From Bacteroidales bacterium (lineage in GTDB: Bacteria; Bacteroidota; Bacteroidia; Bacteroidales; UBA932), in the NCBI GenBank assembly GCA_017617475.1, contig JAFZWC010000087.1:1-43203 (forward strand): DNA of 43,203 nt, in the 5' to 3' direction. The translations under genes and the position numbers were made by a program. Shown piece after piece: positions 17,841 to 41,171 of this stretch (within the stretch, counting starts at the first letter, position 1; every line of letters begins with the position of its first letter). Below the pieces are notes generated by a model. The model was not told where the DNA came from. It ran no database searches and saw only the letters and a program-made list of their open reading frames with translations.

Positions 17841-17859
17841 CGAACCATGTAATCCGGAG

Positions 17860-17900: not shown

Positions 17901-17949
17901 TGGAGGATGATTATTTCTGATTGTATTTGAGTGAAGCGAAGCGAAACGA

Positions 17950-25305: not shown

Positions 25306-26561
25306 TCCTGGCCGGCGGTCTGGGTACCCGTCTCCGTTCCGTAGTCCATGAAATCCCCAAATGTCTGGCCCCGGTGGGTGAAAAGCCTTTTCTGGGGTAT
25401 TTGCTGAACTGGCTGCAGGGCCAGGGGGTGAATCATGTGGTGTTTTCGGTAGGGTATTTGAGGGAGCAGGTGATTGCCTATGTGCAGGGGCGGGAGTGGA
25501 CGTTCACGTACGATTTCGCCATAGAGGAGACGCCTCTGGGAACAGGTGGAGGAATTCGCCTGGCATTGAGTAAATGCCATGAGAATCAGGTGTTTGTGGC
25601 TAATGGAGACACCTTCTTTCCGGTTAATCTGAACGCCATGCCCTTCACCCATGCCGTAACCTTGGCCCTAAAGCCCATGAAGGACTTTGACCGCTACGGC
25701 TCGGTATCTGTTCAACAGGCATCTGCCAGGCCTGCGGCTTCAGAAAATTATTTTTCGGAAGGCTTTCCGAAAAACCAATTTTCCGAAGCCATCGCGAACC
25801 CCTCGCACGCAGATGCCCTGCAGGTTACGGCTTTTCAGGAGAAGCAGCATTGTGAAGAGGGGCTTATCAATGGTGGGGTGTATGCCATTGACCGCAGCAG
25901 GCTGGATTTGAGCAGCCTGCCTGAGAGGTTTTCCTTTGAGAAGGAAGTGCTGGAGCCGGGGGCGGCCATAGGGGAGATTGGGGGATGGGTGTCAGGCGCT
26001 TACTTTATTGATATAGGCATACCGGAAGATTATGCGCTGGCTCAGTGGGCCATTCCGGCCTGGTTTGCCGTCCAGAAGGCCTCTGAGGCCGTTTTAAAGG
26101 CCGATGCCACAACTCTGTTCCTGGACCGCGACGGCGTGCTGAACCGCCACCTCGAGGGCGATTATGTGCGCACGCCGGAAATGTGGGAATGGATGCCCGG
26201 CATCCTGACAGCCCTGGCCGGATGGTCCCGCAAGTTCCGGCACATTGTGCTGGTGACCAATCAGCGCGGAGTGGGGAAGGGCCTCATGACGGATGCCCAG
26301 CTGGCGCAGGTGCACGCTCACATGATGCAGGGTGTCCTGGAAGCGGGCGGCCGCATAGACCTTATCCTTACCTGTACGGCGGTTTCGGAGGAGGATCCCC
26401 GCCGCAAACCCAACCCCGGTATGTTCTACGAGGCCTGTCAGCTTTTCCCGGACATTGACGCAAAAAGCAGCGTCATGCTGGGAGACGCTCCCTCCGACGC
26501 TGCCTTTGCAAAGAATTGCGGAATTACCTTTATTCTTCTGAATCCGGAAGCGGCTTTTTAG
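25293..26561 (+). CDS. Heptose 1-phosphate guanylyltransferase fused to heptose bisphosphate phosphatase, with coding palindrome
   Basis: 422 residues. Domain 1 (about 1-245) is a sugar-nucleotide transferase like HddC: LAGGLGTRLRSVV, PKCLAPVGEKPF, NGDTFF, KEKQ-like QEKQHCEEGLINGGVY, and DIGIPEDY. Domain 2 (about 268-422) is a GmhB-type HAD phosphatase: LFLDRDGVLN, VTNQRGVGKG, DPRRKPNPGM, MLGDAPSD. The CxH...CxC zinc loop of classical GmhB is not seen. With HddA it completes GDP-D-glycero-D-manno-heptose synthesis from heptose 7-phosphate. Residues 150-166 come from the 55-bp palindromic element and lengthen a loop between two strands that is normally a short turn. The end overlaps rmuC tail to tail by 32 bases. 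Confidence 0.9.
   Translation: MEVIVLAGGLGTRLRSVVHEIPKCLAPVGEKPFLGYLLNWLQGQGVNHVVFSVGYLREQVIAYVQGREWTFTYDFAIEETPLGTGGGIRLALSKCHENQVFVANGDTFFPVNLNAMPFTHAVTLALKPMKDFDRYGSVSVQQASARPAASENYFSEGFPKNQFSEAIANPSHADALQVTAFQEKQHCEEGLINGGVYAIDRSRLDLSSLPERFSFEKEVLEPGAAIGEIGGWVSGAYFIDIGIPEDYALAQWAIPAWFAVQKASEAVLKADATTLFLDRDGVLNRHLEGDYVRTPEMWEWMPGILTALAGWSRKFRHIVLVTNQRGVGKGLMTDAQLAQVHAHMMQGVLEAGGRIDLILTCTAVSEEDPRRKPNPGMFYEACQLFPDIDAKSSVMLGDAPSDAAFAKNCGITFILLNPEAAF
25736..25790 (+). repeat. Coding palindromic element, copy A (in the hddC-gmhB fusion)
   Basis: 55 bp; positions 1-14 pair with 42-55, 16-25 with 30-39, with a 1-by-2 internal bulge and a 4-base loop; one A-C mismatch at 7:49. Read in the gene frame it encodes SENYFSEGFPKNQFSEA (residues 150-166). 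It differs from copy C at 4 and from copy B at 7 of 55 positions (hand alignment). The pair 23:32 is G-C here and C-G in the others. Confidence 0.93.
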
Positions 26562-27807
26562 GATTCTTAGGCACGCCCAGCTTGATGAGCTGGCGGGCCG
26601 ACGTAAGGATGGAATTCCCGGATTCCCCAATCTTCAGAGACACTTTGTCGTATTCCTCCACGGCGGCGTGCAGTTTGTCTCCCATGGCGGCGTGCGCCTT
26701 GGCAAAGTCGTACACGCGGTCCACCATGGTCTGGGCTGCCTTGATAATCTTCTCCTGGTTACGGGCCTGGTCGTAATTGGTCCAGGCAATGCGGATCATG
26801 CGCAGGAAGGGCATGAGGGTCTCTTCCGTGGTGATGAGCACCCCTTGCTGGTAGGCTTCCTGGAATATATTGGGAGCCAGCGTCTTGGCCAGCTGGAGGG
26901 AACCGTAGTTGGGGATGAACATAATCACGTAGTCCAGGGTCTTGTAACCTTCCCTCACATAGTCCTGGTAGCGTTTTCCGGACAGGCTCTTGATCTGGGT
27001 GCGGATGGCCAGCAGGTTGCGCTGGGCGGCGTCGTCCTTGACGGCGGGGTCTTCGGCGGCATACCAGTCCGATAGGGCTTCCATGGAGGTTTTGGCATCG
27101 ATGATGACCTCCGTCTTGTCCGGATAATGGAGAATGTAGTCCGGGCGCATCTTCTTGCCGCTGTCCTCGTTGTAGACCACATTGCCCTGGGCGTCGCGCA
27201 AGGTTTCTTCCTTGTCAAAGTCGCGTCCTTCCTCCATGCCCTCGTTCACCAGCATGTTGTACAGGATAATCTCGCCCCAGGTGCCGGCCATCTTGTTCTG
27301 TCCCTTGAGGGCCTGGGCCAGGTTGTCGGCCTTGGAGCCTATGGCCGATGTCTGGTCCTGCAGATGCTTGACGGCCTGTTCCACGGCGGTCTTGAGGGTG
27401 GCCGTACCCTCGGCCTGGGTGCGTTTCTGGGCGTCGAAGCTGTCCTGCATGGCCTTGAGGTCCTTGCCCAGCGGGCCGGTGAGGGTCTTGAAGGTTTCCT
27501 CTGCCTTCTTCTGCAGGGCTTCTTCCCGCTGTTTCAGGAGTTTTTCCGTCTCGGCCGAGAGTTGGCTGCGTACGGCCTCCAACTGCTTGGAAAAGGCTTC
27601 CTGTTGCATCTGGAGGGCTTTTTCGTGGGCGGCCGATTCGGCCTCACGGATGGCCTGCGAAGCCTTGAGGGCTTCTTTGGACGCAATGAGGTCGTTCTCC
27701 AGGGTATTGCAGGCCTTCACTTGCCGGGCATGCATGATGAGCCAGGTGATGACGATGGCCACAATGACGGCCACGACGGCCAGGATGAGGATTACTTCGG
27801 TTGTCAT
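26530..27807 (-). CDS. rmuC: DNA recombination protein RmuC homologue
   Basis: 425 residues. One N-terminal membrane helix (about 5-25), a long coiled coil (about 30-190), then the RmuC domain with GTWGEIILYNMLVNEG, RPDYILHYPDKTEVIIDAKTS and YGSLQLAKTLAPNIFQEA. The Asp...Asp-x-Lys pattern is nuclease-like. The family is linked to limiting DNA inversions and rearrangements. Start overlaps the stop of the upstream flavoprotein gene (ATGA). It probably ends a long minus-strand operon; the last 32 bases overlap the end of the hddC-gmhB fusion, with no terminator between. Confidence 0.93.
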   Translation of the reverse strand: MTTEVILILAVVAVIVAIVITWLIMHARQVKACNTLENDLIASKEALKASQAIREAESAAHEKALQMQQEAFSKQLEAVRSQLSAETEKLLKQREEALQKKAEETFKTLTGPLGKDLKAMQDSFDAQKRTQAEGTATLKTAVEQAVKHLQDQTSAIGSKADNLAQALKGQNKMAGTWGEIILYNMLVNEGMEEGRDFDKEETLRDAQGNVVYNEDSGKKMRPDYILHYPDKTEVIIDAKTSMEALSDWYAAEDPAVKDDAAQRNLLAIRTQIKSLSGKRYQDYVREGYKTLDYVIMFIPNYGSLQLAKTLAPNIFQEAYQQGVLITTEETLMPFLRMIRIAWTNYDQARNQEKIIKAAQTMVDRVYDFAKAHAAMGDKLHAAVEEYDKVSLKIGESGNSILTSARQLIKLGVPKNPKKPLPDSEE

Positions 27808-29057
27808 AGGCTGTTGGCTATGGTTTGGGCGCAGACGTAGCCGGTGCTCCAGGCGGCCTGCAGGTTAAAACCGCCGGTGATGGCGTCTATGTCCAGCACT
27901 TCGCCTGCAAAATACAGGCCCGGGTGCTGTTTGCATTCCAGGGTATTGGGGTTGATATTGCTCAGGGCTACGCCGCCGGCCGTGACGAATTCTTCGCGGA
28001 ACTTGCTCTTGCCGGTGAGGGGATAGCTATCGGCCGTGAGCACGGCCACCAGCCGGTTGAACCCTTTGCTGCCCAGCTCGGCCCAGCGGATGGCGGGGCG
28101 AAGGCCGGCCTTGGCCAGAAGATGGCTCCACAGGCGGCTTTGGAGCAGGTGAGTGGTGGAAATCTGCTTCTGGGGGTTCTCCGTGGCTGTTTTCTGCAAG
28201 AGCTCGCGTGCCTGGGCTTCGGGGGCATGGAGCCAGTTGACGGTGACGGTTCCCTTGTAGCCGCTCTGGGCCAGGTGCCGTGCGGCATAGGAGGAAAGCT
28301 TCAGAGTAGCCGGTCCGCTGAGCCCCCAGTCCGTAATGAGGAGCGGCCCTTCGGCCTTGAACGGAGTGCCGGCCAGGCCGATGGAGGCTTCCACCACCAG
28401 CCCCATGAGGCTTCGCAGGCCGGGGTCCGGGATGGTGAAGGTAAATAGTGACGGCACTGGCGGAACAATTTCCAGTCCCAGCCCTTCCAAAAACGGCAAC
28501 CCCTTGGTGGCTCCTCCGATTGTAACTACCACATAATCAAATGGTTCGTCATTTACATAAATGTGCGTTGGCTTTGCTAAGGTTTCGGAAAATTGGTTTT
28601 TCGCAACGCTTTGCGAAAAATAATTTTCCGAAACCGTCTGGGCTTTGGAAACCGAAAACACCGGTGTATTTAATCGTATTTCGGCGCCGTCCATGGCCTT
28701 TCTCAGGCATCGGACTATGTCCATGGCGTCCTGGGACTGGGGAAACCAGCAGTGGTCTTCCTGCAGGACGCAGGGGACGCCCCGGGACCCGAACCACTCA
28801 ATGGTGTTTTCCTGCGAGAAGGCCTTGAGGGCGCGTTTCATCACGCGCTCTCCGCGCGGGTAAGCCTCTGACAGCGAGCGGATTCCTTCAAAGGAATTGG
28901 TCAGGTTGCATCGGCCCCCTCCGGTGATGGCCACCTTGGCGAGGGGCTTGGGGGCGGCTTCAAATACCGTAACAGCCAGCTCCGGTGCCCGCCTTCTGAG
29001 CTCGGCGGCACAGAAACAGCCGGCGGCTCCGGCCCCTATGATGGCCACGCTAGGCAT
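27804..29057 (-). CDS. YhiN/HI0933-family FAD-dependent oxidoreductase, with coding palindrome
   Basis: 417 residues. FAD-binding start VAIIGAGAAGCFCA (Gly-x-Gly-x-x-Gly), the family signature ITGGGRCNLTN (near 44-54), the conserved YFAGEVLDIDAITGGFNLQAAWSTG region at the C-terminus (cited here only as a match between residues about 382 and 406). The reaction is not known for the family. Residues 143-159 are encoded by the palindromic element and sit in a hairpin between NTPVFSV and DEPFDYVVVTIGG, where relatives have a short strand-turn-strand. It overlaps both neighbours (8 bases with the ABC gene, 4 with rmuC). Confidence 0.9.
   Translation of the reverse strand: MPSVAIIGAGAAGCFCAAELRRRAPELAVTVFEAAPKPLAKVAITGGGRCNLTNSFEGIRSLSEAYPRGERVMKRALKAFSQENTIEWFGSRGVPCVLQEDHCWFPQSQDAMDIVRCLRKAMDGAEIRLNTPVFSVSKAQTVSENYFSQSVAKNQFSETLAKPTHIYVNDEPFDYVVVTIGGATKGLPFLEGLGLEIVPPVPSLFTFTIPDPGLRSLMGLVVEASIGLAGTPFKAEGPLLITDWGLSGPATLKLSSYAARHLAQSGYKGTVTVNWLHAPEAQARELLQKTATENPQKQISTTHLLQSRLWSHLLAKAGLRPAIRWAELGSKGFNRLVAVLTADSYPLTGKSKFREEFVTAGGVALSNINPNTLECKQHPGLYFAGEVLDIDAITGGFNLQAAWSTGYVCAQTIANSL
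28581..28635 (-). repeat. Coding palindromic element, copy B (in yhiN-type gene)
   Basis: 55 bp with the same stem plan as copy A and full pairing apart from the bulge. In the gene frame it encodes SENYFSQSVAKNQFSET (residues 143-159). Pair 3:53 is T-A here and C-G in copies A and C (in C the outermost base 55 is changed), a compensatory change. The following residues, LAKPTH, resemble IANPSH after copy A, so the mobile unit may be longer than the palindrome. Confidence 0.93.
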
Positions 29058-30699
29058 CCTGAGGATGAATCTCGATGATTTGGTCGGCTACTTCCATGGC
29101 GGCCGGGCGGTGGGAGATGAACAGGATGGTCTTTTGCCCGTGATAGAGGCGGTGGAGGTTCCCGATAAGGGTTTTCTCCGTGTCGGCGTCCAGGGCCGAC
29201 GTGCTCTCGTCCAGAATGAGCACGCTGCCGGGATGCAGGAGTGCCCGGGCTATGGCAATGCGCTGGGCCTGGCCTTCGGAAAGGCCGCTTCCGGTTTCTC
29301 CGCAAGGGGTGTCCAGCCCATGGGGGAGGGTGAAGACAAACGAGGCGGCAGCGGTGTCCAGGGCCTGTTTCATGGCTTCTTCAGTGGCCTTGGGATTGGC
29401 CAGCTGCAAGTTGGAGCGGATGGTGCCGCTCAGGAGCGAATTGCCCTGCGGCACGTAGAGGAAATTACCCCGCACGGAGGGTCCGGCAGGGATTCCGTCC
29501 AGGGTGACGGACCCTTCCTGGGGCCTCAGAAGGCCCATGACCAGCCTGAGCAGCGTACTTTTTCCTATTCCCGTATGACCGGCAATGACAGACATGCGGC
29601 CGGAGGGGAAGGTACAGGAAAAGTCTTTGAGAATGGGCTCCGGTGCACCGGGATAGGAGTAGGTAAGGTGGGAGACCACAATTTCCGGGGCCTTTTCCAG
29701 CCGGACAGGCTTCTCCCGGGGTTCCTCTTCCAGTTCTTCCAGCTCCATGAGGCGTTCGATGGAGGTGATGGCCTGGATGATGGCGGGAACCTGGCGGCCG
29801 AACTCGGCTATGGGCCTTTGTACCTGACCCACCAGCTGGAGGAAGGCCGTCATCATACCGTAGGTGACGGTCCCGTGCAGGATGCCGAAGATACCCCACA
29901 GGAAGGCAGCGGCGTGGCCGGCCTGGAAGCCCAGGAACATGAGCCCGCGCGATACGGCGTTGTAATTGAGGCGTTTGCGTGTATTGTCTTCAACGTCTGT
30001 CTGCAGCCAGCCGAACTTCTCCAGCACCCGTTCCACGTTGGTTAAGGTAAGCACCAGCACACGGTGCTGAAGGCTTTCCTGCATCACCTGCTGGAGCTCG
30101 CTCTCCCGGGTGCGGATGGCCGACATGAGCCTGCGCAGCTGCCGGAAAAAGAGCTTGGATCCGAATACGGCGGCGAACATGAGGATGAGCAGTACCCACA
30201 GCAGGTTGGGCGCCAGGATAAGCAGGTAGGCCGATGCCGCCAGCAGTTGCAGCAGGGTTATCACCAGCCCGGGGAAGCGGCTGCCCACCAGATCGGCCAC
30301 TACCCTTATGTCTTCTTCCAGGCGGTTGACGGTGTCTCCGGAGAGGAAGCGGTCGCGGCCGTCCCATCGGCTGCGGAGTACGTGCCCGAACAACTGGAGA
30401 CGCAGGATGTTCTGCGTTTTCACTTGCGTATAGCTCTCCCACCAGCTGGAAAGGATGAAGGTGCCGATCTGCAGCAGCAGGATGCCGACAAAAATGCCTA
30501 TTCCCGTTGCCAGGGGCATGGAATTCTGGTGGGTGGCAATATCGACCAGCTGCTTGCTGGCCCATACGAACCCCAGGGACGCCGCAATACGCACCAGGCC
30601 GATGACCACGCTTACGGCCATGCGCCAGCGAACCGCCCTGGACATTTTCCAGACGGCGGCCATGCATTCCCGGAAACTCTTTTCTTGCTTGACAGGCAT
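29050..30699 (-). CDS. ABC transporter, fused permease and ATPase (exporter type)
   Basis: 549 residues. An N-terminal transmembrane domain of about six helices (25-310) and a C-terminal ATPase: Walker A GHTGIGKSTL, signature LSEGQAQRIAIARAL, Walker B SVLILDES, and H-loop ISHRP. The arrangement is that of MsbA/lipid or peptide exporters, working as a dimer in the inner membrane. The substrate cannot be read from the sequence. A 62-base gap separates it from the metallopeptidase gene upstream; the end overlaps the flavoprotein gene by 8 bases. Confidence 0.93.
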   Translation of the reverse strand: MPVKQEKSFRECMAAVWKMSRAVRWRMAVSVVIGLVRIAASLGFVWASKQLVDIATHQNSMPLATGIGIFVGILLLQIGTFILSSWWESYTQVKTQNILRLQLFGHVLRSRWDGRDRFLSGDTVNRLEEDIRVVADLVGSRFPGLVITLLQLLAASAYLLILAPNLLWVLLILMFAAVFGSKLFFRQLRRLMSAIRTRESELQQVMQESLQHRVLVLTLTNVERVLEKFGWLQTDVEDNTRKRLNYNAVSRGLMFLGFQAGHAAAFLWGIFGILHGTVTYGMMTAFLQLVGQVQRPIAEFGRQVPAIIQAITSIERLMELEELEEEPREKPVRLEKAPEIVVSHLTYSYPGAPEPILKDFSCTFPSGRMSVIAGHTGIGKSTLLRLVMGLLRPQEGSVTLDGIPAGPSVRGNFLYVPQGNSLLSGTIRSNLQLANPKATEEAMKQALDTAAASFVFTLPHGLDTPCGETGSGLSEGQAQRIAIARALLHPGSVLILDESTSALDADTEKTLIGNLHRLYHGQKTILFISHRPAAMEVADQIIEIHPQDA

Positions 30700-30761
30700 T
30701 CTACTCTAGCTTTGTTTAATCCTATAAATATAGATATTATCGGGAACAGTTCAAAGAAGAT

Positions 30762-31166
30762 TCAGCGTATCTTGTACTGTCTCAGTTCTTTCTCCAGTTC
30801 CCGGTGGTTGGGGCAAAGGGACTCCAGAAGGGCATGGAAACGGGCTCCGTGATTCATTTCCTTCAGGTGGCAGAGCTCGTGGAGCATTACATAATCCTGC
30901 AAAGGCTGGGGGAGGGTGACCAGGCGCAGGTTGAGATTGATGTTGCCCCTTACCGAGCAGCTGCCCCAGTTGCTCACGTTGTTCTTGATGGTAACCCGGT
31001 TGTAGGTGAAACCGTTGGCATCGGCCAGCTCCTTGAGCCGCGGGGGCAGGGAAGCCTTGGCCCTGGCGCGCAGTTCCTCCACTTCGGGAGTCACCGGTGC
31101 CCGGCGGGGCTTTCTCCTCAAGATATAATACAGTCCCGTAAAAGGGTTGAAAAACACCCTAGGCAT
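30762..31166 (-). CDS. Short YgjP/M48-type metallopeptidase domain protein
   Basis: 134 residues. The conserved SNWGSCS and the zinc motif HELCHLKEMNHGARFH are present, with the expected distal part after it. Full-length YgjP (DUF45) proteins have about 230 residues; here the N-terminal half is missing and replaced by a basic RRKPRRAPVT stretch. The active site is complete, so it is more likely a short form than a pseudogene. The start overlaps the channel gene end by 8 bases. Confidence 0.87.
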   Translation of the reverse strand: MPRVFFNPFTGLYYILRRKPRRAPVTPEVEELRARAKASLPPRLKELADANGFTYNRVTIKNNVSNWGSCSVRGNINLNLRLVTLPQPLQDYVMLHELCHLKEMNHGARFHALLESLCPNHRELEKELRQYKIR

Positions 31167-33780
31167 GCTGCTCCGGGGTATCTTTTACATGGACGTCCAC
31201 CTGAGGGAAAGGAATCTCGATACCTTTCTCGTTAAAGGCTCTGTATATGGCTTCACGGGCCTGTCCGGGGAAGGATCGGTAGGTTTCCACGGTAGTATAT
31301 AAAAGAACCGTCAAATTCACTGAACTGTCACCGAAATCGTCCAGGCGCACCGTAATCCCGCGGCGCTTGTCCACCACTTCGCGGCCGTACTTGTCCTTGT
31401 TCATGAGCGGCTGCAGGGCTTCCAGGATGGTCTGGCGGGCCAATTCCACATCCGTTCCATACTTCACGCCCACGCCGAAGGTTACCAGCTGGTAAGAGTT
31501 GTTCCGGGTAAGGTTCTTGAAGTTCTTGTTGAACAGGGCCGAATTGGTAAAGAACATGATGGAACCGTCCGTGGCCTCAATCTGGGTGGTCTGGTAGCTG
31601 AGGCCCACCACGGTGCCGCGGATGCCGTCACATTCCACAATGTCGCCAACCCGGACACGGCCGCCCATGAGCTGAACCCCGTAGAAGAAGTTGTTCAGGA
31701 TATCCTTCATGGCAAAGCCGATACCGGTGGCCAGACCCGTGGAAACCAGCGCCAGGCCCGAGGCTGGAATCCTGAGCATCAGGAAGATAATGATTACATA
31801 CAAGCCCCAGCCCAGCAGCGAAATGATGTTGTTGGCCAGGTTGAAATTGATGTCCGTCTCCTTGAAAGCCACATCGTCTCCCAGTTTCCGGATGGCGGCG
31901 TGGGTCTTGATGACCCGGTAAAATGCCTTGGCAGCATATACGGCATAGCGGAACACGAAGAACAGGCTCACCGTAAGGATAAGCTTGAACAGCGACAGTT
32001 CGAAGCCGGTGCCGTCTTCGCCCAGACTCTGTACAAAAGGATGGAAGAAAATCTTCTGGGCCACCGTTGTGAAGTTGAACACGTTGCAGGCCATAAACAC
32101 GGAGGCCGGGAAGGACCAGATGCCCAGCAGAGGCATCACGCTGGTCTTGAGGAGGTCGTTGAGCCATGTTACCTCAATATAGGATCCCTTTGCCGATGAA
32201 AGCGGAAGGGAGGGATGCTGCAGGCGGTACTCGGCCTTGCGCTGCTTGATGCGGCTGTCGTAATGGCGGCGCAGGAGATTGGAAATGGCGATGACGGTTT
32301 CCAGCAGGGCCAGCTGGAACGTCCACCAGATCAGGAACAGCAGGGAGCCCATCACCACTCCCGCCCAGGAAATGAGGGTGGCCACCGTCATGGCTATGGC
32401 GCTGGCCCACAGGAGCACACGGTCGGCCCGGTCCACCTTCTGGAACTTCTTCACGTTCACCCAGTACTGGGTTACGGTGGCCAGAAGCAGCAAGGCGGGG
32501 AACAGCAGGTTGATGACGCTGTTGGGAATGAAGATAATGCGGAAATAGATGACGATAAAGGCCATTCCCAGTGTGGGCAGATAGGCCGCCAGGGTGCTCC
32601 GGATCTGGTATTTGTCCAGGCGGATGAGCATGGATACGAAGATGGCGGCAATGAGCCAGGCAAACTCTCCCATCATCTTGGAAGAGCGCACAATGAAGGT
32701 GTTGGAGCTCACAGTGGCGTTCACATACAGGAAAACGCCAAAGAGGAACACGCCCAGCAGGGCAATGACCATTCCCTTGTGGTGCCGGAACCATTCCGTC
32801 TTTCCAAACCGGCTGCGGCGGACGCCCCTGTTCACAATGAAGGTGGATACCAGCGTGGCCAGCCCCAGCACCAGCAGCAGCATGAAGGAGTAGAAATAAA
32901 CGATGGGACCTCTCCAGGAACTTTCGACAGCCTGTTCGGACCGGTTCACATTGAGGCTGTAGCGGCTGCGCATGTCGGCCATGGCGCGGGAGAAACGGTG
33001 CGGGAAGCGGGCAATGGTCTTGAAATAATTGCCCTGGCCCTGCACAAAGAGCTTCTGCTGAACGGATTCATACCGCTCCTGCGCGTAATTATAGGCGCTT
33101 CTAAGCAATTCATCCGTCTGCACGTAATACTCGTTGTCCTTCTCTATCTGCTGCAGCTGCTGCCAGTAATACGCCACAATCTGTTCGGCCACAAAAAGGC
33201 AGCTGTCGCGCACCGCCACGGTGGAGCTGTCCATCTTCATGTCGAACTCGTTCTTGGCAAAGTCCGGCGTGGCCACAATCACCGTATCGGCAAGGGCGAG
33301 GGCCATGCTGGCCGAATCCAGGGCCACAGCCACCCGGGTCTCCTGCTCAATCTCTTCCGCCGTGCGCTCCGGCGGCATTTTCCGAAGGGTAAGCAGCAGG
33401 CGGTTGTACCGCTCCATTTCCGTGGTGAGGTTGGCCTTTACCTCGGCGTACGGGGTGCTCTCGTCTTTGAAGCTCTCGTACTGGCGGGTGACTTCATTGA
33501 GGGCGAAGGTAAGGTCGAAGGTGTTTTCAGAAGCCTGGGAGTACAGCATCACAGAGAGTTCGTTGCACTCGTCTATGAGCTCTACAAGCCTCTGATGTTG
33601 CTCCTGGATGCGCTTTTCGGCACTGCCGCTGAACTGGATAAGCCCGCTGTAGGTCTCCTTGAGTTCCATCAGCAAAACGGAAAGGGTATGGTTCAGGTTG
33701 TCTTCCTTGAACACCGCCCAAATGGGGCCTATGGCCACCAGAAGGGCGCAGAGAACCGCGATGATGCGTTTTTTCCTCAT
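31159..33780 (-). CDS. Large MscS-family mechanosensitive channel
   Basis: 873 residues. Signal or first membrane segment (about 5-23), a periplasmic coiled-coil domain (about 40-290), about ten transmembrane helices and the MscS core near the C-terminus: pore helix GLALVSTGLATGIGFAMKD, GGRVRVGDIVECDGIRGTV (beta domain), QIEATDGSIMFFTNSAL, and the C-terminal alpha/beta part ending KGIEIPFPQVDVHV. This is the MscK/YbdG-like long form that releases solutes under membrane tension. Start overlaps the serB stop (ATGA), end overlaps the metallopeptidase gene. Confidence 0.92.
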   Translation of the reverse strand: MRKKRIIAVLCALLVAIGPIWAVFKEDNLNHTLSVLLMELKETYSGLIQFSGSAEKRIQEQHQRLVELIDECNELSVMLYSQASENTFDLTFALNEVTRQYESFKDESTPYAEVKANLTTEMERYNRLLLTLRKMPPERTAEEIEQETRVAVALDSASMALALADTVIVATPDFAKNEFDMKMDSSTVAVRDSCLFVAEQIVAYYWQQLQQIEKDNEYYVQTDELLRSAYNYAQERYESVQQKLFVQGQGNYFKTIARFPHRFSRAMADMRSRYSLNVNRSEQAVESSWRGPIVYFYSFMLLLVLGLATLVSTFIVNRGVRRSRFGKTEWFRHHKGMVIALLGVFLFGVFLYVNATVSSNTFIVRSSKMMGEFAWLIAAIFVSMLIRLDKYQIRSTLAAYLPTLGMAFIVIYFRIIFIPNSVINLLFPALLLLATVTQYWVNVKKFQKVDRADRVLLWASAIAMTVATLISWAGVVMGSLLFLIWWTFQLALLETVIAISNLLRRHYDSRIKQRKAEYRLQHPSLPLSSAKGSYIEVTWLNDLLKTSVMPLLGIWSFPASVFMACNVFNFTTVAQKIFFHPFVQSLGEDGTGFELSLFKLILTVSLFFVFRYAVYAAKAFYRVIKTHAAIRKLGDDVAFKETDINFNLANNIISLLGWGLYVIIIFLMLRIPASGLALVSTGLATGIGFAMKDILNNFFYGVQLMGGRVRVGDIVECDGIRGTVVGLSYQTTQIEATDGSIMFFTNSALFNKNFKNLTRNNSYQLVTFGVGVKYGTDVELARQTILEALQPLMNKDKYGREVVDKRRGITVRLDDFGDSSVNLTVLLYTTVETYRSFPGQAREAIYRAFNEKGIEIPFPQVDVHVKDTPEQHA

Positions 33781-35006
33781 AACTTGCCTTGTTCTCCCAG
33801 ATGGGAATCCTTGAATCCTAAGAAATAGAGTACGCCGTCCAGGCCGATGGTGCTCAGGCTCTGCCGGGCTTCCTTCTTCACGCGCGGCTTGGCATGGAAG
33901 GCTATGCCCAGACCGGCCTCCAGCAGCATGGGGAGGTCGTTGGCGCCGTCTCCGACGGCAATGGTCTGCGCCAGGTTCACGTGCTCGGTCATGGCGATGA
34001 GCTTCAGAAGGTCCGCTTTGCGGCGGCCGTCCACAATCTCGCCCACATAGCGGCCGGTGAGTTTGCCGTCGTCTCCCACCTCCAACTCGTTGGCATATAC
34101 ATAGTCAATTCCGTACTTGCGTTGAAGGTATTCTCCGAAGAAGGTGAATCCGCCGCTGAGGATGGCGATCTTGTAGCCGCAGGTTTTGAGAACGGACATG
34201 AGACGGTCTGTTCCTTCCGTAACGGGAAGATGGTCTGCAATATCCTGCATTACAGATATATCTAGTCCCTTAAGTAAAGCGACCCTTTCGGTAAAGCTCT
34301 CCTTGAAATCAATTTCTCCACGCATGGCGCGTTCGGTAATGGCGGCCACCTGATCACCTACGCCGTGACGGCGGGCCAGCTCGTCAATACACTCCGTCTG
34401 GATGAGGGTGGAGTCCATGTCGAAGCAGATGAGGCGGCGCATACGGCGGTACATGTCGTCTTTCTGGAAAGAGAAGTCCAGACCGGTCTCCGACCCCAGG
34501 TGCATCAGGGCACGTTGCATTTCGGCCCGGTTTTCCAGGGTACCGCGCACGGAGAATTCCACGCAGGCACGGACGTTCCGCTCCGGGTGCATGATGCTCA
34601 TACGGCCCGTCAGGCGCTTGATGGCATCTATGTTAAGGCCATGGTTGCTGATGACTTCCGACGCGGCCTGGATTTGCTTGGCGCTAAGGCTTCTGCCTAT
34701 GACGGTGAGAATATAGCGGTTCTTGCCCTGACGGCCCGCCCAGGCTTCGTAGTCTTCGTCCGAGATGGGCTCAAAGCCTATGGTCACACCCAGTTCGGTA
34801 ACCTTGAAGAGCAGTTCCTTCATCACCTGGCCGGAAACATTCTCGTCAATTCGGATGAGGATGCCCAGAGACAGGGTGCTGTGGATATCGGCCTGGCCGA
34901 TGTCCAGGATCTGGGCGTCGTAGCGCGCCAGAATGCTCATGATGGACGCCGTAAGACCAATCTGGTCCTTGCCGGAAATGCGGATGAGAATCTGTTCTTT
35001 CTTCAT
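33777..35006 (-). CDS. serB: Phosphoserine phosphatase with N-terminal ACT domains
   Basis: 409 residues. Two ACT-like regulatory domains (about 1-80 and 95-175, start QILIRISGKDQIGLTA) precede a HAD phosphatase: CFDMDSTLIQTECIDELA with the nucleophile Asp, AILSGGFTFF, and VGDGANDLPML. It makes L-serine from phosphoserine; the ACT domains suggest amino-acid control. I use ATG 35006 (MKKEQ); a TTG at 35015 is in frame. The promoter at 35013-35044 puts the transcript start within a few bases of this ATG. First gene of the minus-strand run ending with rmuC. Confidence 0.95.
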   Translation of the reverse strand: MKKEQILIRISGKDQIGLTASIMSILARYDAQILDIGQADIHSTLSLGILIRIDENVSGQVMKELLFKVTELGVTIGFEPISDEDYEAWAGRQGKNRYILTVIGRSLSAKQIQAASEVISNHGLNIDAIKRLTGRMSIMHPERNVRACVEFSVRGTLENRAEMQRALMHLGSETGLDFSFQKDDMYRRMRRLICFDMDSTLIQTECIDELARRHGVGDQVAAITERAMRGEIDFKESFTERVALLKGLDISVMQDIADHLPVTEGTDRLMSVLKTCGYKIAILSGGFTFFGEYLQRKYGIDYVYANELEVGDDGKLTGRYVGEIVDGRRKADLLKLIAMTEHVNLAQTIAVGDGANDLPMLLEAGLGIAFHAKPRVKKEARQSLSTIGLDGVLYFLGFKDSHLGEQGKL

Positions 35007-35012
35007 AGAAAA

Positions 35013-35044
35013 CAAATGTACGAAAAAAGAGCTTCTTATACAAA
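35013..35044 (-). promoter_or_regulatory. Promoter of serB, adjacent to the start codon
   Basis: Minus strand TTTG (35044-35041), 20 bases and TACATTTG (35020-35013). The -7 box ends 6 bases before the ATG, which implies a leaderless or nearly leaderless mRNA. Confidence 0.65.
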
Positions 35045-35072
35045 AATAGCCCTGCGGAAGGGCAGGGCTATT
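35045..35072 (-). terminator. Terminator of the second glycoside-oxidation cluster
   Basis: AATAGCCCTG (35045-35054) pairs with CAGGGCTATT (35063-35072); on the minus strand it is followed by TTTTG. It lies 20 bases past the isomerase stop and touches the serB -33 element. Confidence 0.8.
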
Positions 35073-35091
35073 CTTGATTCATGGGCTTCGC

Positions 35092-35979
35092 CTATTTGGC
35101 GTAGGTGGCTTTGACGAAGGGCGCCTCAAGCAAATAATCGGCGCTTTCCTTGAAGCTGATCAGGATGTCGTCGTGCTTGTAGCGCTCAATCTCTACCACG
35201 AAGTCTTCCAGGCCGGCCTTGTCGGCATTCTTGAAGATGGCGTCGAAGCCAACCATGCCGCTCTGGCCCACTTCCCACTCGTCCTTGATGTGGAGCATGG
35301 TGAAGCGGCCGGGATAGCGCTCGAAGTAATCTACGGGCGAGGCCTTTCCGATGACGGCCCAGTACACGTCCATCTGGAAGAACACCAGATCGGGGTCTGT
35401 GTGCTCCAGCATGTAGTCGTACATCACCTGGTCTTCCACTTTCTCGAACTCATAGGCGTGGTTGTGGTAGCCGTATTTGAGGCCGGCGGCCTTGCAGCGG
35501 CGGCCCACTTCGTTGAAATAGTCGCAGTAGACCTGGAGGTCGTGCAGGGTGGCCTGAAGGCCCATCCAGGGCGTTACCAGGTACTTCATGCCGGCCTTCT
35601 TGTGCACTTCGATGCACTTGTCCCACCATTCCAGGGCGGCGGAGAAATCTCCGCTGGTGAGCTGTTCAGGGGTTAAGCCGTGGGATACATGGGCGCTGAG
35701 GACCTTCATGCCGGCATCTTCCACCTTCTGTTTGAAGACTTCGGGTGTGTCTCCGTAGATGAGGCCTTTGTCTCCGTCATAGTTGGCGGTTTCCACGGCG
35801 GTGTATCCCATGGCGGCGATCGTCTTCAGGATATCGGCATAGTTTTCCGTGTTAAGGATACTGCGCGCAGAATACATCTGCACGCACATATCCTTCTTGA
35901 CAGGAGCCGCATCCTTGGGCGCGCAGGCAGGAAAAGCCATCATGGCAGCAAAGGCAAGGGCGATAATACTCCTTTTCAT
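35092..35979 (-). CDS. Sugar phosphate isomerase/epimerase-like TIM-barrel lipoprotein
   Basis: 295 residues. Lipoprotein signal with Cys19 (FPAC). TIM-barrel body with VQMYSARSIL at the first strand, HVSHGLTP, GYHNHAYEFEK, FFQMDVYWAV and MLHIKDEW, which carry the likely metal ligands (Glu, Asp, His, Glu). The family isomerises or epimerises sugars; with the Gfo/Idh and DUF1080 genes upstream it probably takes part in 3-keto-glycoside breakdown. One base separates it from the DUF1080 gene. Confidence 0.87.
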   Translation of the reverse strand: MKRSIIALAFAAMMAFPACAPKDAAPVKKDMCVQMYSARSILNTENYADILKTIAAMGYTAVETANYDGDKGLIYGDTPEVFKQKVEDAGMKVLSAHVSHGLTPEQLTSGDFSAALEWWDKCIEVHKKAGMKYLVTPWMGLQATLHDLQVYCDYFNEVGRRCKAAGLKYGYHNHAYEFEKVEDQVMYDYMLEHTDPDLVFFQMDVYWAVIGKASPVDYFERYPGRFTMLHIKDEWEVGQSGMVGFDAIFKNADKAGLEDFVVEIERYKHDDILISFKESADYLLEAPFVKATYAK

Positions 35980-35980
35980 A

Positions 35981-36823
35981 TTAGTCCATCAGTTTGATAC
36001 GGATGTTGCGGTACCACACGTCGTCGCCGTGGTCCTGCAGGCCGAAATAGCCCTCGTGGTTCTCGCCGCCGCAGTTGTTCAGCAGTTCGAAAGCGAGGGG
36101 CCAGTCCTTCTGGCTGAATTTGCTGGCCTGGAGCATGTCGGTCCACTGCTGGGTCCACAGGTGATATTCCAGCACCTTGACATCGTTCTGGAAATGCACC
36201 ACGGTGCCCTTGTAAACCAGGATCTTGGTCTTGTTCCACTCACCGTAGGGATTCTGGTTCTGGGGAACGGCGGGGATCATGTCGTACAGGGACGCGGACT
36301 GACGGTTGCCGTCAACGCCCAGGAGAGCATCCGGGTGGTTGGCGTTGTCCAGCACCTGGTATTCCGGAGCGGAGATGTAGATGGGCTCGTAACGGTCGTT
36401 TCCGTTCTCGTCCTTGGTGGTGACTTCCTTGGCCAGGTAGAAGATGCCGGAGTTGCCTCCCTTGGAGATCTTCCATTCCAGTTCCAGGGTGAAGTTCTTG
36501 AACTGATGGGCGAAGATGATGTCTCCGCCTTCGCCGGTCTGGCCTTCGCCGGTGCCGGTGCCGTTGAACTTGAGGGCGCCCTCGTCAATGGTCCAGCGGG
36601 AAGGGAGTTCCGTCTTTCCGTAACCGCGCCAGCCCTTGGTGGAGGTGCCGTCGAAAAGGATTACGTAGCCGTCTTCATCTACCGGGAATTCATCCAGGTT
36701 CACCTGAGGGGCTTCCACTACCGTGTAGGCGGGAACGCCGCCCTGCTGCTTATTGTTGTTTTTGCAAGATACAGCGCACATGACCAGAAGGGTTGCTGCA
36801 GATAAGAATAGCAGTTTTTTCAT
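35981..36823 (-). CDS. DUF1080 (3-keto-disaccharide hydrolase-like) lipoprotein
   Basis: 280 residues. Lipoprotein signal (Cys20, or Cys16). The DUF1080 concanavalin-like fold is shown by YVILFDGTSTKGWRGYG, NFTLELEWKISKGGNSGIF and the C-terminal GYFGLQDHGDDVWYRNIRI. Members split 3-keto-glycosides after a partner oxidoreductase has oxidised C3. The partner is encoded 23 bases upstream and an isomerase 1 base downstream. Confidence 0.9.
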   Translation of the reverse strand: MKKLLFLSAATLLVMCAVSCKNNNKQQGGVPAYTVVEAPQVNLDEFPVDEDGYVILFDGTSTKGWRGYGKTELPSRWTIDEGALKFNGTGTGEGQTGEGGDIIFAHQFKNFTLELEWKISKGGNSGIFYLAKEVTTKDENGNDRYEPIYISAPEYQVLDNANHPDALLGVDGNRQSASLYDMIPAVPQNQNPYGEWNKTKILVYKGTVVHFQNDVKVLEYHLWTQQWTDMLQASKFSQKDWPLAFELLNNCGGENHEGYFGLQDHGDDVWYRNIRIKLMD

Positions 36824-36846
36824 ATTATTAATTCGTTTTACTTGGT

Positions 36847-38331
36847 TTAGTCTTTGGGCATTTCCGGCAGCACCCAGCCGTCACGGAAGACGGGTTTGAT
36901 GAGTTCTGCTGCATACTGGTTGGCATCTACGGGATCTGTGTACACGTTCTCGAACGTGGGGTGACCGTCGTGGATGGAGAATCCGTCATGGATCATGGTC
37001 TGGATGGTGGCATCCTTGGGGATGTTGGTGAATTTCATGTTCTCACCGTCCCATTCCAGTTCCATGTTCAGGCTCTGCAGGCGCACGGCAACCACACCCA
37101 TGGCCACCATTTCATTGAACGGACCGGCCTGGGCGAAGTCGGATACGCAGGGCACGCGGTAGTCGGGGTCTTCCTTGCAGGCGCGGACCCAGTCCTGCTG
37201 GTGGGAGGTCTTAACCACGCGCAGCACGTGCGGGACCTCGGGGTTACGGCCGCTCAGCAGGTACGGGTTAACACCGTAGCAACCGCAGATAAGGGTGTCC
37301 TTGGTGCCGTAGAAAATGAGGCAGCCGCCGGAATCGTTGAGATTCTTGCCGACGGGAAGGCCTTCGGGACGGTCGGGCAGGATGCCGCCGTCGGTCCAGT
37401 TCACCACTACCTCGGGCATGGCCACCTTGGGCATGTTGTCACGGGCGGGGAAGACGAAGCGCACCTTCTCGGCCTGGGGGCAGGATTCAGTGAGGAGGGC
37501 GGTGGAGCTGCCCTGTACCTTGGTGGGATAACCCAGCTTCAGGGCTGCAAATACGGGATGCAGGATGTGGCAGGCCATGTCGCCCAGGGCGCCGGTGCCG
37601 AAATCCCACCAGCCGCGGAAATTCCAGGGAGTATAGATGGAATGGTAAGGACGCATGGGGGCGGGGCCGATGAAGCAGTCCCAGTTCATGGTCTTGGGCA
37701 CTTTTTCCGCCTTGGCGGGGCGCTCCAGGCCCTGGGGCCAGATGGGACGGTCCGTGAAGGCATCAACGCGGGTGACTTCGCCGATTTCGCCGTTCCAGAT
37801 CCATTCGCATACTTTGCGGACACCTTCGGCCGAGGCACCCTGGTTACCCATCTGGGTGGCTACGCGGTGCTTCTTGGCCAGCTTGGTGAGCAGGCGGGAC
37901 TCGTAAACGGTACGGGTGAGGGGCTTTTCGCAGTAGACGTGCTTACCGGCTGCGATGGCTTCCGCGGCGATGATGGCGTGCGTGTGGTCGGCCGTTGCTA
38001 CAATAACGGCATCGGCCTCAGGCAGCAACTCCTTGAACATGACGCGGTAGTCGCTGTACTTCTTGGCGTTGGGGTAGGTTTTGAACACGTGGTCGGCATA
38101 CTTCCAGTCCACGTCGCACAGGCCGATGATTTCTTCGGTCTTGGCTACCTCCGCAATGTCCGCGGCGCCACGGCCGCCGATACCCACGGCGAGGACCTTC
38201 AGTTTACGGTCCATGGGCGGCGGGGGAACGTCCTTGGCTTTGGCGAATACCGATTTGGGGGCCACGGCCAGACCTACGGCGGCGGCGGTTCCAGCTTTCA
38301 GGAACGATCTTCTGGATAATTCTTTGGTCAT
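36847..38331 (-). CDS. Gfo/Idh/MocA-family oxidoreductase, Tat-exported
   Basis: 494 residues. Tat signal SRRSFLKAG (RR at 7-8), no lipobox Cys, so probably soluble in the periplasm. Rossmann motif VGIGGRGAADI, the EKP motif (CEKPLTRTV) and GALGDMACHILHPVF, as in the bacterial oxidoreductases that act on glycosides. It is likely to oxidise or reduce C3 of a sugar, supplying the DUF1080 hydrolase. Longer than the related protein at 18911-20254 and not a recent copy. First gene of a three-gene operon; inverted repeats upstream (38354-38404) may be control sites. Confidence 0.9.
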   Translation of the reverse strand: MTKELSRRSFLKAGTAAAVGLAVAPKSVFAKAKDVPPPPMDRKLKVLAVGIGGRGAADIAEVAKTEEIIGLCDVDWKYADHVFKTYPNAKKYSDYRVMFKELLPEADAVIVATADHTHAIIAAEAIAAGKHVYCEKPLTRTVYESRLLTKLAKKHRVATQMGNQGASAEGVRKVCEWIWNGEIGEVTRVDAFTDRPIWPQGLERPAKAEKVPKTMNWDCFIGPAPMRPYHSIYTPWNFRGWWDFGTGALGDMACHILHPVFAALKLGYPTKVQGSSTALLTESCPQAEKVRFVFPARDNMPKVAMPEVVVNWTDGGILPDRPEGLPVGKNLNDSGGCLIFYGTKDTLICGCYGVNPYLLSGRNPEVPHVLRVVKTSHQQDWVRACKEDPDYRVPCVSDFAQAGPFNEMVAMGVVAVRLQSLNMELEWDGENMKFTNIPKDATIQTMIHDGFSIHDGHPTFENVYTDPVDANQYAAELIKPVFRDGWVLPEMPKD

Positions 38332-38353
38332 AAAATAGTGTTTTGGGTTTAAA

Positions 38354-38404
38354 TTGTTGCTTCCTCAACAAATTGTGATAAATATAATTCTTTTTTAAGA
38401 ATTA
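38354..38404. promoter_or_regulatory. Two inverted repeats in a divergent promoter region
   Basis: TTGTTG (38354-38359), 6 bases, CAACAA (38366-38371); and TAATTCTT (38385-38392), TTTT, AAGAATTA (38397-38404). Both are perfect and lie between the oxidoreductase and transporter genes. They could be regulator sites for the glycoside cluster; no regulator gene is nearby. Confidence 0.4.
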
Positions 38405-38459
38405 TCAAAATATTAACGCCTTCCATTAAAGATAAATACTGGAATTCGTGAAAATTCAG

Positions 38460-38467
38460 TAAATTTG
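38460..38467 (+). promoter_or_regulatory. -7 box of the CorC-type gene
   Basis: TAAATTTG matches TAnnTTTG, 18 bases before ATG 38486. It overlaps the in-frame TTG at 38465, which argues against that start. No clear -33 element. Confidence 0.5.
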
Positions 38468-38485
38468 CGAATAGAAATAAAGACT

Positions 38486-39550
38486 ATGGCCCTCCTCGTC
38501 ATATACCTGCTGTTGACAATGAGCATTTCTTTCCTTTGCTCGTTGCTGGAATCCGTGCTCATGTCAACCCCCATCTCTTACCTGACCATGAAAGAAGACG
38601 AGGGAGACAAAAACGCCGCCCTCCTGATGAAGTTCAAGCAGGACCCCGACCGCCCACTGAGCGCCATCCTGTCCCTGAATACCATTGCCAACACCCTGGG
38701 CGCTGCCGCCGTGGGTCACCAGGCCACACTCCTGAGCGGGGACCACTTCTTCGGCATAGTGAGCGCAGTCATGACGGTCCTTATCCTGGTTTTCTCCGAG
38801 ATTGTGCCCAAAACCATCGGCACGTCCCACTGGAAAGACCTCCTCTGGCTGGCCCGCATCATGAATTTCCTGGTGTACCTGCTTTTCCCCATTGTCTGGC
38901 TCATTGACAAGCTGCACAACAGCATCTCGGACGAAGATCCGGATCTGGGCATCTCCCGCGAGGAAGTGTCGGCCATGGCCAATATGGGCGAGGAAGAAGG
39001 CGTGCTGGACAACAGCGAGAACAAGGTTATCCAGAATATCATCAAACTGGACGACATCAAGGCCTACGACATCATGACGCCGCGCATTGTGGCCGCCATC
39101 GCCCCGGAATCCATGACACTGAGGCAGTTCTACAAGCAGGAAGAGCTCTCGCACAACTCCCGCATTCCGGTATATTCCGATTCCCCAGAGTTCATTACGG
39201 GATACATCCTGCGTTACGACGCCTTGGAGAATCTGGCCGAAGACAAGTTTGACATGCGCCTGAAGAGCATCAAGCGCAAGATTGCCGCCTTCCACGAAGA
39301 AACGTCCGTGTCGGACATCTGGGAAAGCCTCCTCAAGACCAAGGACCAGATTGCCCTCATTATTGACGATTACGGCTGCTTCCAGGGCATCATCACGCTG
39401 GAAGACATTATGGAAACCATTCTGGGAATGGAGATTATAGACGAGAACGACACCATTACGGATATGCAGCAATATGCCAAGGAGCGCTGGCTCAAACGCA
39501 AGAACCAGTACAAGCAGATTGTGCTGCCAGACGATGACGCGGAAGACTAG
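38486..39550 (+). CDS. CNNM/CorC-type (DUF21-CBS) membrane transporter
   Basis: 354 residues from ATG 38486. DUF21 domain with four membrane segments (about 1-140, containing SLNTIANTLGAAAVG and FSEIVPKTIG), then a CBS pair (IMTPRIVAAI; ALIIDDYGCFQGIITLEDIMETILG). The usual C-terminal CorC_HlyC domain after the CBS pair is missing; the protein ends in a short charged tail. Relatives are implicated in magnesium or other cation handling. It converges on mutY with a 4-base overlap. Confidence 0.9.
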   Translation: MALLVIYLLLTMSISFLCSLLESVLMSTPISYLTMKEDEGDKNAALLMKFKQDPDRPLSAILSLNTIANTLGAAAVGHQATLLSGDHFFGIVSAVMTVLILVFSEIVPKTIGTSHWKDLLWLARIMNFLVYLLFPIVWLIDKLHNSISDEDPDLGISREEVSAMANMGEEEGVLDNSENKVIQNIIKLDDIKAYDIMTPRIVAAIAPESMTLRQFYKQEELSHNSRIPVYSDSPEFITGYILRYDALENLAEDKFDMRLKSIKRKIAAFHEETSVSDIWESLLKTKDQIALIIDDYGCFQGIITLEDIMETILGMEIIDENDTITDMQQYAKERWLKRKNQYKQIVLPDDDAED

Positions 39551-40578
39551 GGAAGGGCTTCCAGAAGCAGTTCGAACAGGCGGGGCTTGGCGTAGTTGTC
39601 AAGCTCCGTTTCTTTTATCCAGAAGTAGCCTTCCGGCAATTCCGGCCGATTCTCCGGCTCCCACAGATAGAAGTCGCAGATAAGGGTCCGATGCGTAAGC
39701 TGGTGCCTGACGCCCTTTCGAATCAACTCAGCTTCGGAAAATTGGTTTTTCGCAAAGCCTTGCGAAAAATAATTTTCCGAAGCCAACGGCTCAGCAGAAA
39801 GCTTCGCCAATGGCTCATAGAGTCCTTGCCAGATGTCTCCAGAACCTCTTTTGCGGATAGCAGTGTAGCCTCCGCAACGGACATAAATGTAGCTAAAACG
39901 GCGCTCCTGCACCTTGGCTGCGGGTTTCTTGAGGGGCAGCAACTCCACCCGCCCGGTGCGGAAAGCGTTGCAGGAACCCTGCAGGGGACAGGTAAGGCAG
40001 TCCGGGTTCTTGGGGGTGCACTGCAGCGCTCCGAAGTCCATTATGCCCTGGTTGAACCGGGCAGGGGAGTCCTGAGGGAGAAGCTGGTTGGCGAGTTCGG
40101 TGAATTCCTTTTTGGCTTCCGTGGTGCCCACGGGGGTGGTAAGACCGAAATGGCGGGCCAGCACGCGGTAAACGTTTCCGTCCACCACCGCGGCCAGAAG
40201 GCCGAAGCAGATGGAACCTATGGCGGCGGCAGTGTAATCACCTACGCCTTTGAGACTCCGTATGCCTTCCAGGGTATCCGGAAAGGCGCCCAAGGCCACA
40301 ATCTGTTTGGCGGCGGCGTGAAGGTTGCGGGCACGGGAATAGTATCCCAGGCCCTCCCAGAGGCGCAGGACCTCGTCTTCGGTGGCATCGGCCAAGTCCT
40401 TGACGGTAGGGAAGCGGTCCATGAAACGGTGCCAATAAGCCGTCCCCTGGGCTATACGGGTTTGCTGGAGGATGATTTCACTGAGCCACACCGCATACGG
40501 ATCCCCGGTCCTCCGCCAGGGCAAATCCCGGGCGTTCTCGGAGTACCACTCAAGGATAATGCGGCTGAAGGGGTTCAC
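39547..40578 (-). CDS. mutY: A/G-specific adenine glycosylase with coding palindrome
   Basis: 343 residues from GTG 40578, which overlaps the maf stop (GTGA); the frame is open further up but that part reads through maf. The catalytic Glu34 (SEIILQQTRI), helix-hairpin-helix LKGVGDYTAAAIGS, catalytic Asp133 (VVDGNVYRV) and the 4Fe-4S cysteines C187-x6-C194-x2-C197-x5-C203 are all present, followed by a NUDIX-like C-terminal domain that recognises 8-oxoguanine (GDIWQGLYEPL). It removes adenine opposite 8-oxoG. Residues 267-283 come from the palindromic element and lie in a loop of the C-terminal domain. Confidence 0.95.
   Translation of the reverse strand: MNPFSRIILEWYSENARDLPWRRTGDPYAVWLSEIILQQTRIAQGTAYWHRFMDRFPTVKDLADATEDEVLRLWEGLGYYSRARNLHAAAKQIVALGAFPDTLEGIRSLKGVGDYTAAAIGSICFGLLAAVVDGNVYRVLARHFGLTTPVGTTEAKKEFTELANQLLPQDSPARFNQGIMDFGALQCTPKNPDCLTCPLQGSCNAFRTGRVELLPLKKPAAKVQERRFSYIYVRCGGYTAIRKRGSGDIWQGLYEPLAKLSAEPLASENYFSQGFAKNQFSEAELIRKGVRHQLTHRTLICDFYLWEPENRPELPEGYFWIKETELDNYAKPRLFELLLEALP
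39730..39784 (-). repeat. Coding palindromic element, copy C (in mutY)
   Basis: 55 bp with the same stem plan; only the outermost pair (1:55) is broken. In the gene frame it encodes SENYFSQGFAKNQFSEA (residues 267-283). It is 51/55 identical to copy A and 50/55 to copy B by hand alignment. The preceding residues SAEPLA resemble SARPAA before copy A. Confidence 0.93.
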
Positions 40579-41171
40579 GCGAATCTCTGTAAGGCTTCGT
40601 ATACGCGCTGGACGGGGAAGCCCACCACGTTGAAGTAAGAACCCTCGATGCGGGTGATGCCAATATGGCCTATCCATTCCTGGATAGCATAGGCCCCCGC
40701 TTTGTCAAAGGGCTTGTAAGTGTCTACGTAATAGGTGATTTCGGTCTCGGAAAGGGGTTTGAACCACACCTCTGTGGTAACATCGAAGGTTTCCTCACGG
40801 GAGGCGCTTCGCAAGGTGACGGCGGTGGTTACGTGATGTTCGCGGCCGGAGAGGTCCCGGAGCATTCGGCAAGCGTCTTCCCGGTCTTTGGGTTTGCCCA
40901 GAATCTCACCGGGGTTGCCGCCCGAAGGCGGGAGGATGACCATGGTGTCGGCCGTGATCAGGATTTCGTTCTCCCGCAAGGGGCGGTGGAAGCCGTGCGA
41001 CTTGCCCTGGGACATGAGGCGGGGTACCTGGTCATAGGGGATATCTGAACTGAAGGATTCCTCGAAGTTGTTATTAGTATCAACCTCAAAATCAATGTCT
41101 AATCCTTTTAGTAATTCACGCCTTCTTGGGGAATTGCTGCCCAGGATGATATGCTTGGAACGAAGGTCCAT
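40575..41171 (-). CDS. maf: Maf-type nucleotide pyrophosphatase
   Basis: 198 residues, full length. Maf signature ILGSNSPRRRELLKG at the start, the catalytic ITADTMVIL and the conserved GKPKDREDACRML and AGAYAIQEW. It hydrolyses non-canonical or surplus nucleoside triphosphates (dTTP/UTP type) to monophosphates and is linked to septum control. Its stop overlaps the GTG of mutY and 3 bases separate it from the kdsC-like gene; both neighbours in house-cleaning and repair. Confidence 0.94.
   Translation of the reverse strand: MDLRSKHIILGSNSPRRRELLKGLDIDFEVDTNNNFEESFSSDIPYDQVPRLMSQGKSHGFHRPLRENEILITADTMVILPPSGGNPGEILGKPKDREDACRMLRDLSGREHHVTTAVTLRSASREETFDVTTEVWFKPLSETEITYYVDTYKPFDKAGAYAIQEWIGHIGITRIEGSYFNVVGFPVQRVYEALQRFA

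Follow-up and report, generated by a model that had tools for sequence, protein, structure and literature searches.

Why should one and the same palindrome stand in frame in three unrelated genes of a single contig? The question is raised by contig JAFZWC010000087.1 (assembly GCA_017617475.1) of a Bacteroidales bacterium, whose 43,203 nucleotides are called here the window. Three copies of a 55-bp palindrome were found in it: copy 1 (25736..25790, plus strand) in a gene for a fused HddC-GmhB-type heptose enzyme (25293..26561, plus), copy 2 (28581..28635, minus) in a gene for a TIGR00275 (YhiN/HI0933-type) flavoprotein (27804..29057, minus) and copy 3 (39730..39784, minus) in mutY, encoding the MutY adenine glycosylase (39547..40677, minus). 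The copies agree pairwise at 48/55, 51/55 and 50/55 positions, start at offset 2 modulo 3 of the host gene, and are all read as SENYFS-x4-KNQFSE. An earlier sequence-only reading of the window had reported this likeness, the common frame and the single orientation to the coding strand, and had described the hosts as unrelated and functional-looking; the likeness, frame and orientation were reproduced, and the three hosts are indeed unrelated, with recognisable domains. Its statement that five of the six frames of the palindrome are open holds for copies 2 and 3; in copy 1 two antisense frames are closed. We consider it probable that the palindrome represents a Bacteroidales repeat family, residing both in enzymes and between genes, and that it is a non-autonomous mobile element which an enzyme moves in trans.

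The copies are strong hairpins. Folded as RNA, copies 1 to 3 reach -24.9, -28.3 and -29.2 kcal/mol, versus about -9 kcal/mol for shuffled sequences, and each folds better than 200 of 200 shuffles (z -5.9, -7.3 and -7.0). An alignment of 79 copies reveals 24 base pairs. An asymmetric internal loop, constant among the copies (A opposite CC), separates an upper stem, whose tip comes in a few types, from a lower stem that varies widely in sequence from copy to copy. Bases pair in 92.1% of the pairing cells of this alignment (78.6% in shuffles), and 270 cells are changed on both sides, compared with 91 in shuffles, none of 500 shuffles scoring as high; such double changes affect 17 of the 24 pairs, and the covariation drops far below this level when the pair partners are slid by 1-3 columns. 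The constancy of the inner arms and internal loop is partly built in, because the pattern with which the copies were found fixes the inner arms; the lower stem and tip were left free. The shuffle folding and covariation tests together rule out a chance origin of the hairpins. Identity with a known Rfam RNA was also rejected, as no match at gathering score was obtained for the window and 12 loci. A fourth, diverged copy (17852..17908, minus) lies in noncoding DNA of the window; it has the same A/CC internal loop, and its longest open reading frame (ORF) gave no Pfam match.

The repeated unit exceeds the 55 bp. It includes a 3' tail, roughly ATCGCAACGCCNACGC, which in copy 2 (28563..28580, minus) terminates in the motif CCAACGCAC, and in copy 1 also an outer stem, formed by the arms GGCATCTGC (25718..25726, plus) and GCAGATGCC (25809..25817, plus). 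The hairpin is often preceded by a CCNACGG motif and the 3' tail often ends in CCNACG: this hexamer was found 5' of 31 of 213 copies (3 in a control stretch) and 3' of 73 (4 in a control stretch). Where both are present (20 copies), they are exactly 69 nt apart in 16. The basic unit is probably about 69 nt, i.e. 63 nt plus one CCNACG direct repeat, which is a multiple of three. Flanks able to pair over at least 8 bases were noted in 66/150 copies versus 197/2980 mismatched flank pairs. The pairing segments mostly lie at constant distances from the hairpin. The outer stem that they form varies from copy to copy, and only where it is present does the element reach a length of approximately 105-115 nt. 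Within the RUG14425-like group, L043, L055, L068 and L069 (less exactly, L024 and L103) have an outer stem that resembles the stem of a CGTC-type repetitive extragenic palindrome (REP). Since a REP with a matching stem also occurs alone in RUG14425-like genomes, the core of the element seems to sit here in the loop of a REP hairpin. A nested insertion was observed in RGIG7610 (L004, L029, L075, L095, L116): the 5' loop of the element there contains another hairpin (GGTCCCCGAAAATC..GATTTTTGGGGTGC), which is flanked on either side by a repeat of AGACGG.

The three window copies exemplify a general bias. In window-like genomes, the flanks of 73 copies were compared with 22 host proteins of the same loci, self matches included. 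In 54 of the 73, a set of mutually non-independent copies, the matches of the two flanks to a host agree in strand and frame; the NYFS frame is read in 47 of these 54, two antisense frames in 5 and 2, respectively, and the other two sense frames in none. Among the remaining 19 copies, five match only downstream and are in the NYFS frame (four in atpB, one in a 2-hydroxyacid dehydrogenase gene), one (L015:390) has different frames on its two sides, two with a downstream and one with an upstream match only are in another sense frame, one is antisense and one-sided, and nine are without a match. The 47 copies in the NYFS frame represent 16 host families, and counted by family the sense frame is used in 16/16, so the same-frame bias suspected from three genes is real and extends well beyond them. 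These hosts include CitX, citrate lyase ligase/CitG, RibF, a family-2 glycosyltransferase, YggS, ATP synthase gamma, a DNA alkylation repair enzyme, RnpA, RmlA, RmlB, UDP-glucose dehydrogenase and HAD phosphatases. Ten ORFs in other frames or over unassigned copies were also analysed, of which two antisense ones gave a Pfam match (HAD and beta-lactamase family) and eight did not.

A preferred frame had been taken in the sequence-only reading as a sign of selection either on the peptide or on the way of insertion. The former was not supported. Across 58 genic copies in sense orientation, the variation at codon positions 1, 2 and 3 amounts to 0.64, 0.52 and 0.64 bits, with no excess at the third position; paired changes in the hairpin alter amino acids, changes preserving base pairs dominate, and the loops carrying the element turn over fast. 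Because the codon positions vary about equally, it is the hairpin that is conserved and not the peptide, and the choice of frame looks like tolerance of the least harmful open one. Aligned with solved relatives, the inserts coincide with gaps (as in RmlB and ATP synthase gamma) or with regions of poor match. As the AlphaFold model of MutY is of poor quality (mean predicted local distance difference test score, pLDDT, 52.8), the possible exposure of the host loops is judged from these alignments.

In relatives the same loops are empty, contain palindromic repeats of other kinds, or bear the element in one to three copies. Insert-free orthologues of the host proteins do exist, and as relatives at up to 98% identity lack the insert, an ancestral domain part was rejected as its identity. 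A clean filled/empty case is the MutY pair P0034/P0114, which are 98.0% identical outside the loop and 23 residues apart, ESPT[ASENYFSQSFAKNQFPEAIAKPT]HDSL versus ESPTHDSL; P0005 and P0009 likewise differ from P0030 by 23 residues (95.9 and 93.2% identity). This difference equals the 69-nt spacing of the CCNACG motifs. Among 120 MutY homologues, 98 were readable by script, of which 47 contain the NYFS element, with three copies in one; P0073 and P0107 have the antisense reading KWFFAKPCEKY, and others have different repeats, e.g. CHSERSEES. The element was found in 59 of 111 GmhB loops and in 31 of the 71 TIGR00275 loops read among 120, where the loop pattern missed many distant orthologues. 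An ELCSASAK-x2-ADATAEHS palindromic repeat with its own long outer stem was observed in the same GmhB and TIGR00275 loops (L156, L173, L180). G004, the nearest relative, shares copy 3 with the window and is devoid of copies 1 and 2, having other palindromes and a short loop there. From the 20 genomes searched, RmlB-type orthologues were readable in 7. The loop has no insert in G007, G014, G123 and G234, harbors one CGTC-type REP in G008 and three palindromes in G019, and in G001 contains the element within a REP-like stem. Neither arm of the G001 stem was present in the four empty alleles; an origin of the outer stem by inverted copying of target DNA is thus unsupported in this one readable case.

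Other changes occur inside the loops, i.e. hairpin deletions of 12 to 15 residues (P0139/P0202, P0019/P0042) and a tandem duplication of 34 residues (P0316/P0332, 99.5% identity). The loops change while the host enzymes hardly do. In two pairs of nearly identical proteins, P0058/P0069 (MutY) and P0255/P0259 (GmhB), the entire hairpin tip is swapped, which alters several paired bases together and resembles the outcome of gene conversion or template switching.

The family is not confined to the window. A scan of a genome collection with a pattern taken from the hairpin arms returned at least 120 stretches, and among the matches listed 119 of 120 are titled Bacteroidales or Bacteroidia; many titles of the matching records name the rumen, reticulum or omasum. 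The only Clostridia-titled record among these matches (L066) bears the element at the extreme end of a 3.4-kb contig and is therefore likely a binning error. A viral contig collection contained no exact match to the arm pattern. A covariance model built from the 79 copies matched 26 of 200 genomes in a genus sample of G004 and 2 of 295 in an order sample, one being G004 itself; many copies thus occur in related genomes. Many genomes contain several to at least 20 matches each and three reach 26-27, counts which are minima inasmuch as at most 27 (genus) or 18 (order) candidates were scored per genome, and which may be inflated where a palindrome matches on both strands. An 833-kb contig sample, 43 kb of it the window, gave 21 matches, which represent 18 distinct sites. 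The six that this census returned from 120 kb of G008 all lie within the genes for MutY, TIGR00275 and GmhB, the census having missed a third GmhB copy (L158 shows three). Near-identical copies were also found in G015 (L380-L394), in stretches that look intergenic. These copies often adjoin a REP of the TGTCATTCTGAGCG type, together with a GGTTAAAGCACAC stretch that is shared. Most of these genomes are metagenome-assembled genomes (MAGs) by title; an error of a single assembly was rejected, as the same insert is present in many MAGs and protein sets.

Based on these observations, we suggest the following course of events. The folded single strand would be the form recognised, and insertion would take place next to CCNACG. 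Copies would survive only in tolerant, likely exposed host loops, and only when read in the hydrophilic NYFS frame or in one of two antisense frames; the proteins likely tolerate the element because the added stretch stays readable. Inserted copies would then duplicate, lose hairpins and swap tips, which is why the loops would evolve faster than the enzymes that carry them. Several results weigh against this proposal. No mobilising enzyme was found, and with a strict pattern 29 of 30 loci of Y1 transposase genes had no copy within approximately 1.5 kb. The two CCNACG motifs occur together in only the 20 of 213 copies given above, and the hairpin differs in length between window-like and other genomes (35-37 nt core), so the length of the unit is not divisible by three in every case. 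Among pairs at least 93% identical, the 23-residue difference was met in 5 of 97 for MutY, two of them by rearrangement, in none of 82 for TIGR00275 and in 1 of 78 for GmhB (by rearrangement); many of the changes are duplications or deletions inside old loops and not new insertions. At L015:390 the two sides of the element are in different frames, which speaks against a clean in-frame insert there.

Who moves the element is the point at which a narrower version of the same explanation has to be weighed, namely a REP mobilised by resident Y1 transposases like the REP-associated tyrosine transposases (RAYTs). The hairpin with its constant internal loop would suit such enzymes, and PF01797 was matched in 24 of the 26 genomes with the element in the genus sample versus 119 of the other 174 (p = 0.007, uncorrected for kinship). 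However, a copy was located near just 1 of the 30 Y1 loci, Y1 genes are common in genomes without a match to the element, and no GTAG end was seen; we therefore regard this narrower version as unlikely. It could also be asked whether anything moves at present, or whether old insertions are kept alike by template switching and gene conversion. Related species do share the atpB site (L009, L036, L044, L104) and the glycosyltransferase site (L021 and L040), tips are swapped in otherwise similar loops (P0058/P0069), and template switching can perfect palindromes, according to PMC6649704. Still, the spread of a single family over 16 unrelated hosts and intergenic arrays, together with clean filled and empty alleles at 98% identity, makes an explanation with little or no present movement improbable.

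Two other proposals start from the protein. The peptide SENYFS-x4-KNQFSE might itself be useful, e.g. as a linker or binding tag, and have been spread and kept by selection, in keeping with the 47 of 54 two-sided genic copies in the NYFS frame and none in the other two sense frames. Yet its codon positions are about equally variable, close relatives are without it, the hosts are unrelated, seven copies are read in antisense and others lie between genes, so we give a useful peptide little credence. Even less plausible, to the point of being hardly worth retaining, is a hairpin skipped in translation or removed from the RNA, as in Magnusiomyces mitochondria. Such an insert may well occur in unrelated genes, and bypassed hairpins exist (PMC6649704), but what is skipped needs no open or preferred frame, and 54 copies keep that of their host, with one frame dominating. 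A mobile palindrome moved in trans accounts better for the data than any of these proposals.

A broader possibility, offered only tentatively, is that the hairpin is adapted to life in proteins, with a unit that is a multiple of three in its main form and one frame that is read as a hydrophilic linker free of stops. Its normal habitat might then be loops, both in core enzymes (ATP synthase, MutY, sugar-nucleotide enzymes) and in REP hairpins, and these loops might constitute a fast-changing, stacked archive of mobile palindromes. In practical terms, such inserts can confuse the alignment, clustering and structure prediction of MAG proteins. The element also makes testable how hairpins enter proteins, for what reason a single frame is tolerated, which enzyme moves them, and what share of the variation in protein loop length is owed to mobile DNA.

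Two other features of the window were noted. The noncoding stretch of copy 4 also contains a 21-bp perfect stem with a 3-nt loop and T-rich/A-rich arms (17596-17640), which looks like a two-way terminator. At the start of the mutY ORF (minus strand, below 40677), the first 26-31 residues have their matches in several relatives elsewhere than in MutY, in G018 and G015 at a distance of about 1.4 kb; translation of MutY probably begins further inside the ORF.

No report of this element, or of coding palindromes in Bacteroidales, was met in titles and the beginnings of abstracts, which does not prove its absence from print. In PMC6649704, hairpins within coding sequence are described from mitochondria, as coding palindromes in Nematomorpha and as bypassed hairpins in Magnusiomyces; besides the mitochondrial setting, those of Magnusiomyces differ in being untranslated. 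CGTC-tagged REPs (Di Nocera 2013, PMC3733652) are small hairpins with an 8-9 bp stem and a CGTC end, also intragenic and recorded in Bacteroidetes too. Such REPs occupy the same gene loops as our element, which in contrast has a 24-bp stem with an internal loop; flank listings revealed no CGTC (or TGTC, CCTC) end and flanks of the CCNACG type, and identity with these REPs was rejected on stem length and end. With the GTAG REPs of RAYTs the element shares the non-autonomous hairpin and Y1 genes in most of the genomes bearing it; the flank listings contain no GTAG end and the single copy among 30 Y1 loci does not amount to linkage, so this identity was rejected as well. A miniature inverted-repeat transposable element (of the DDE type) would have terminal inverted repeats and a target-site duplication of fixed length; here CCNACG direct repeats have the 69-nt spacing in 16 of the 20 copies with both, of 213, and the two ends are unlike each other owing to the 3' tail.

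The best-known examples of protein-coding palindromes come from Rickettsia and Wolbachia, both hard to study. Rickettsia palindromic elements (RPEs) and their Wolbachia counterparts are palindromic repeats within ORFs that leave the frame intact, different repeats occupying the same region of one Rickettsia and one Wolbachia gene; RPEs are 100-150 bp long (PMC3767692). The Bacteroidales element, a repeated palindrome in frame in unrelated ORFs, shares its loops with other repeats as RPEs do, so the likeness to RPEs proposed from the window alone is borne out. It differs in phylum, in its 55-nt hairpin and unit of about 69 nt, and in the A/CC internal loop, and the two are likened by behaviour. 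The best reading is thus a REP-like, trans-mobilised coding palindrome, in which the Rickettsia type of behaviour is displayed by a new element in another phylum, now in gut bacteria and with filled and empty alleles at high identity.

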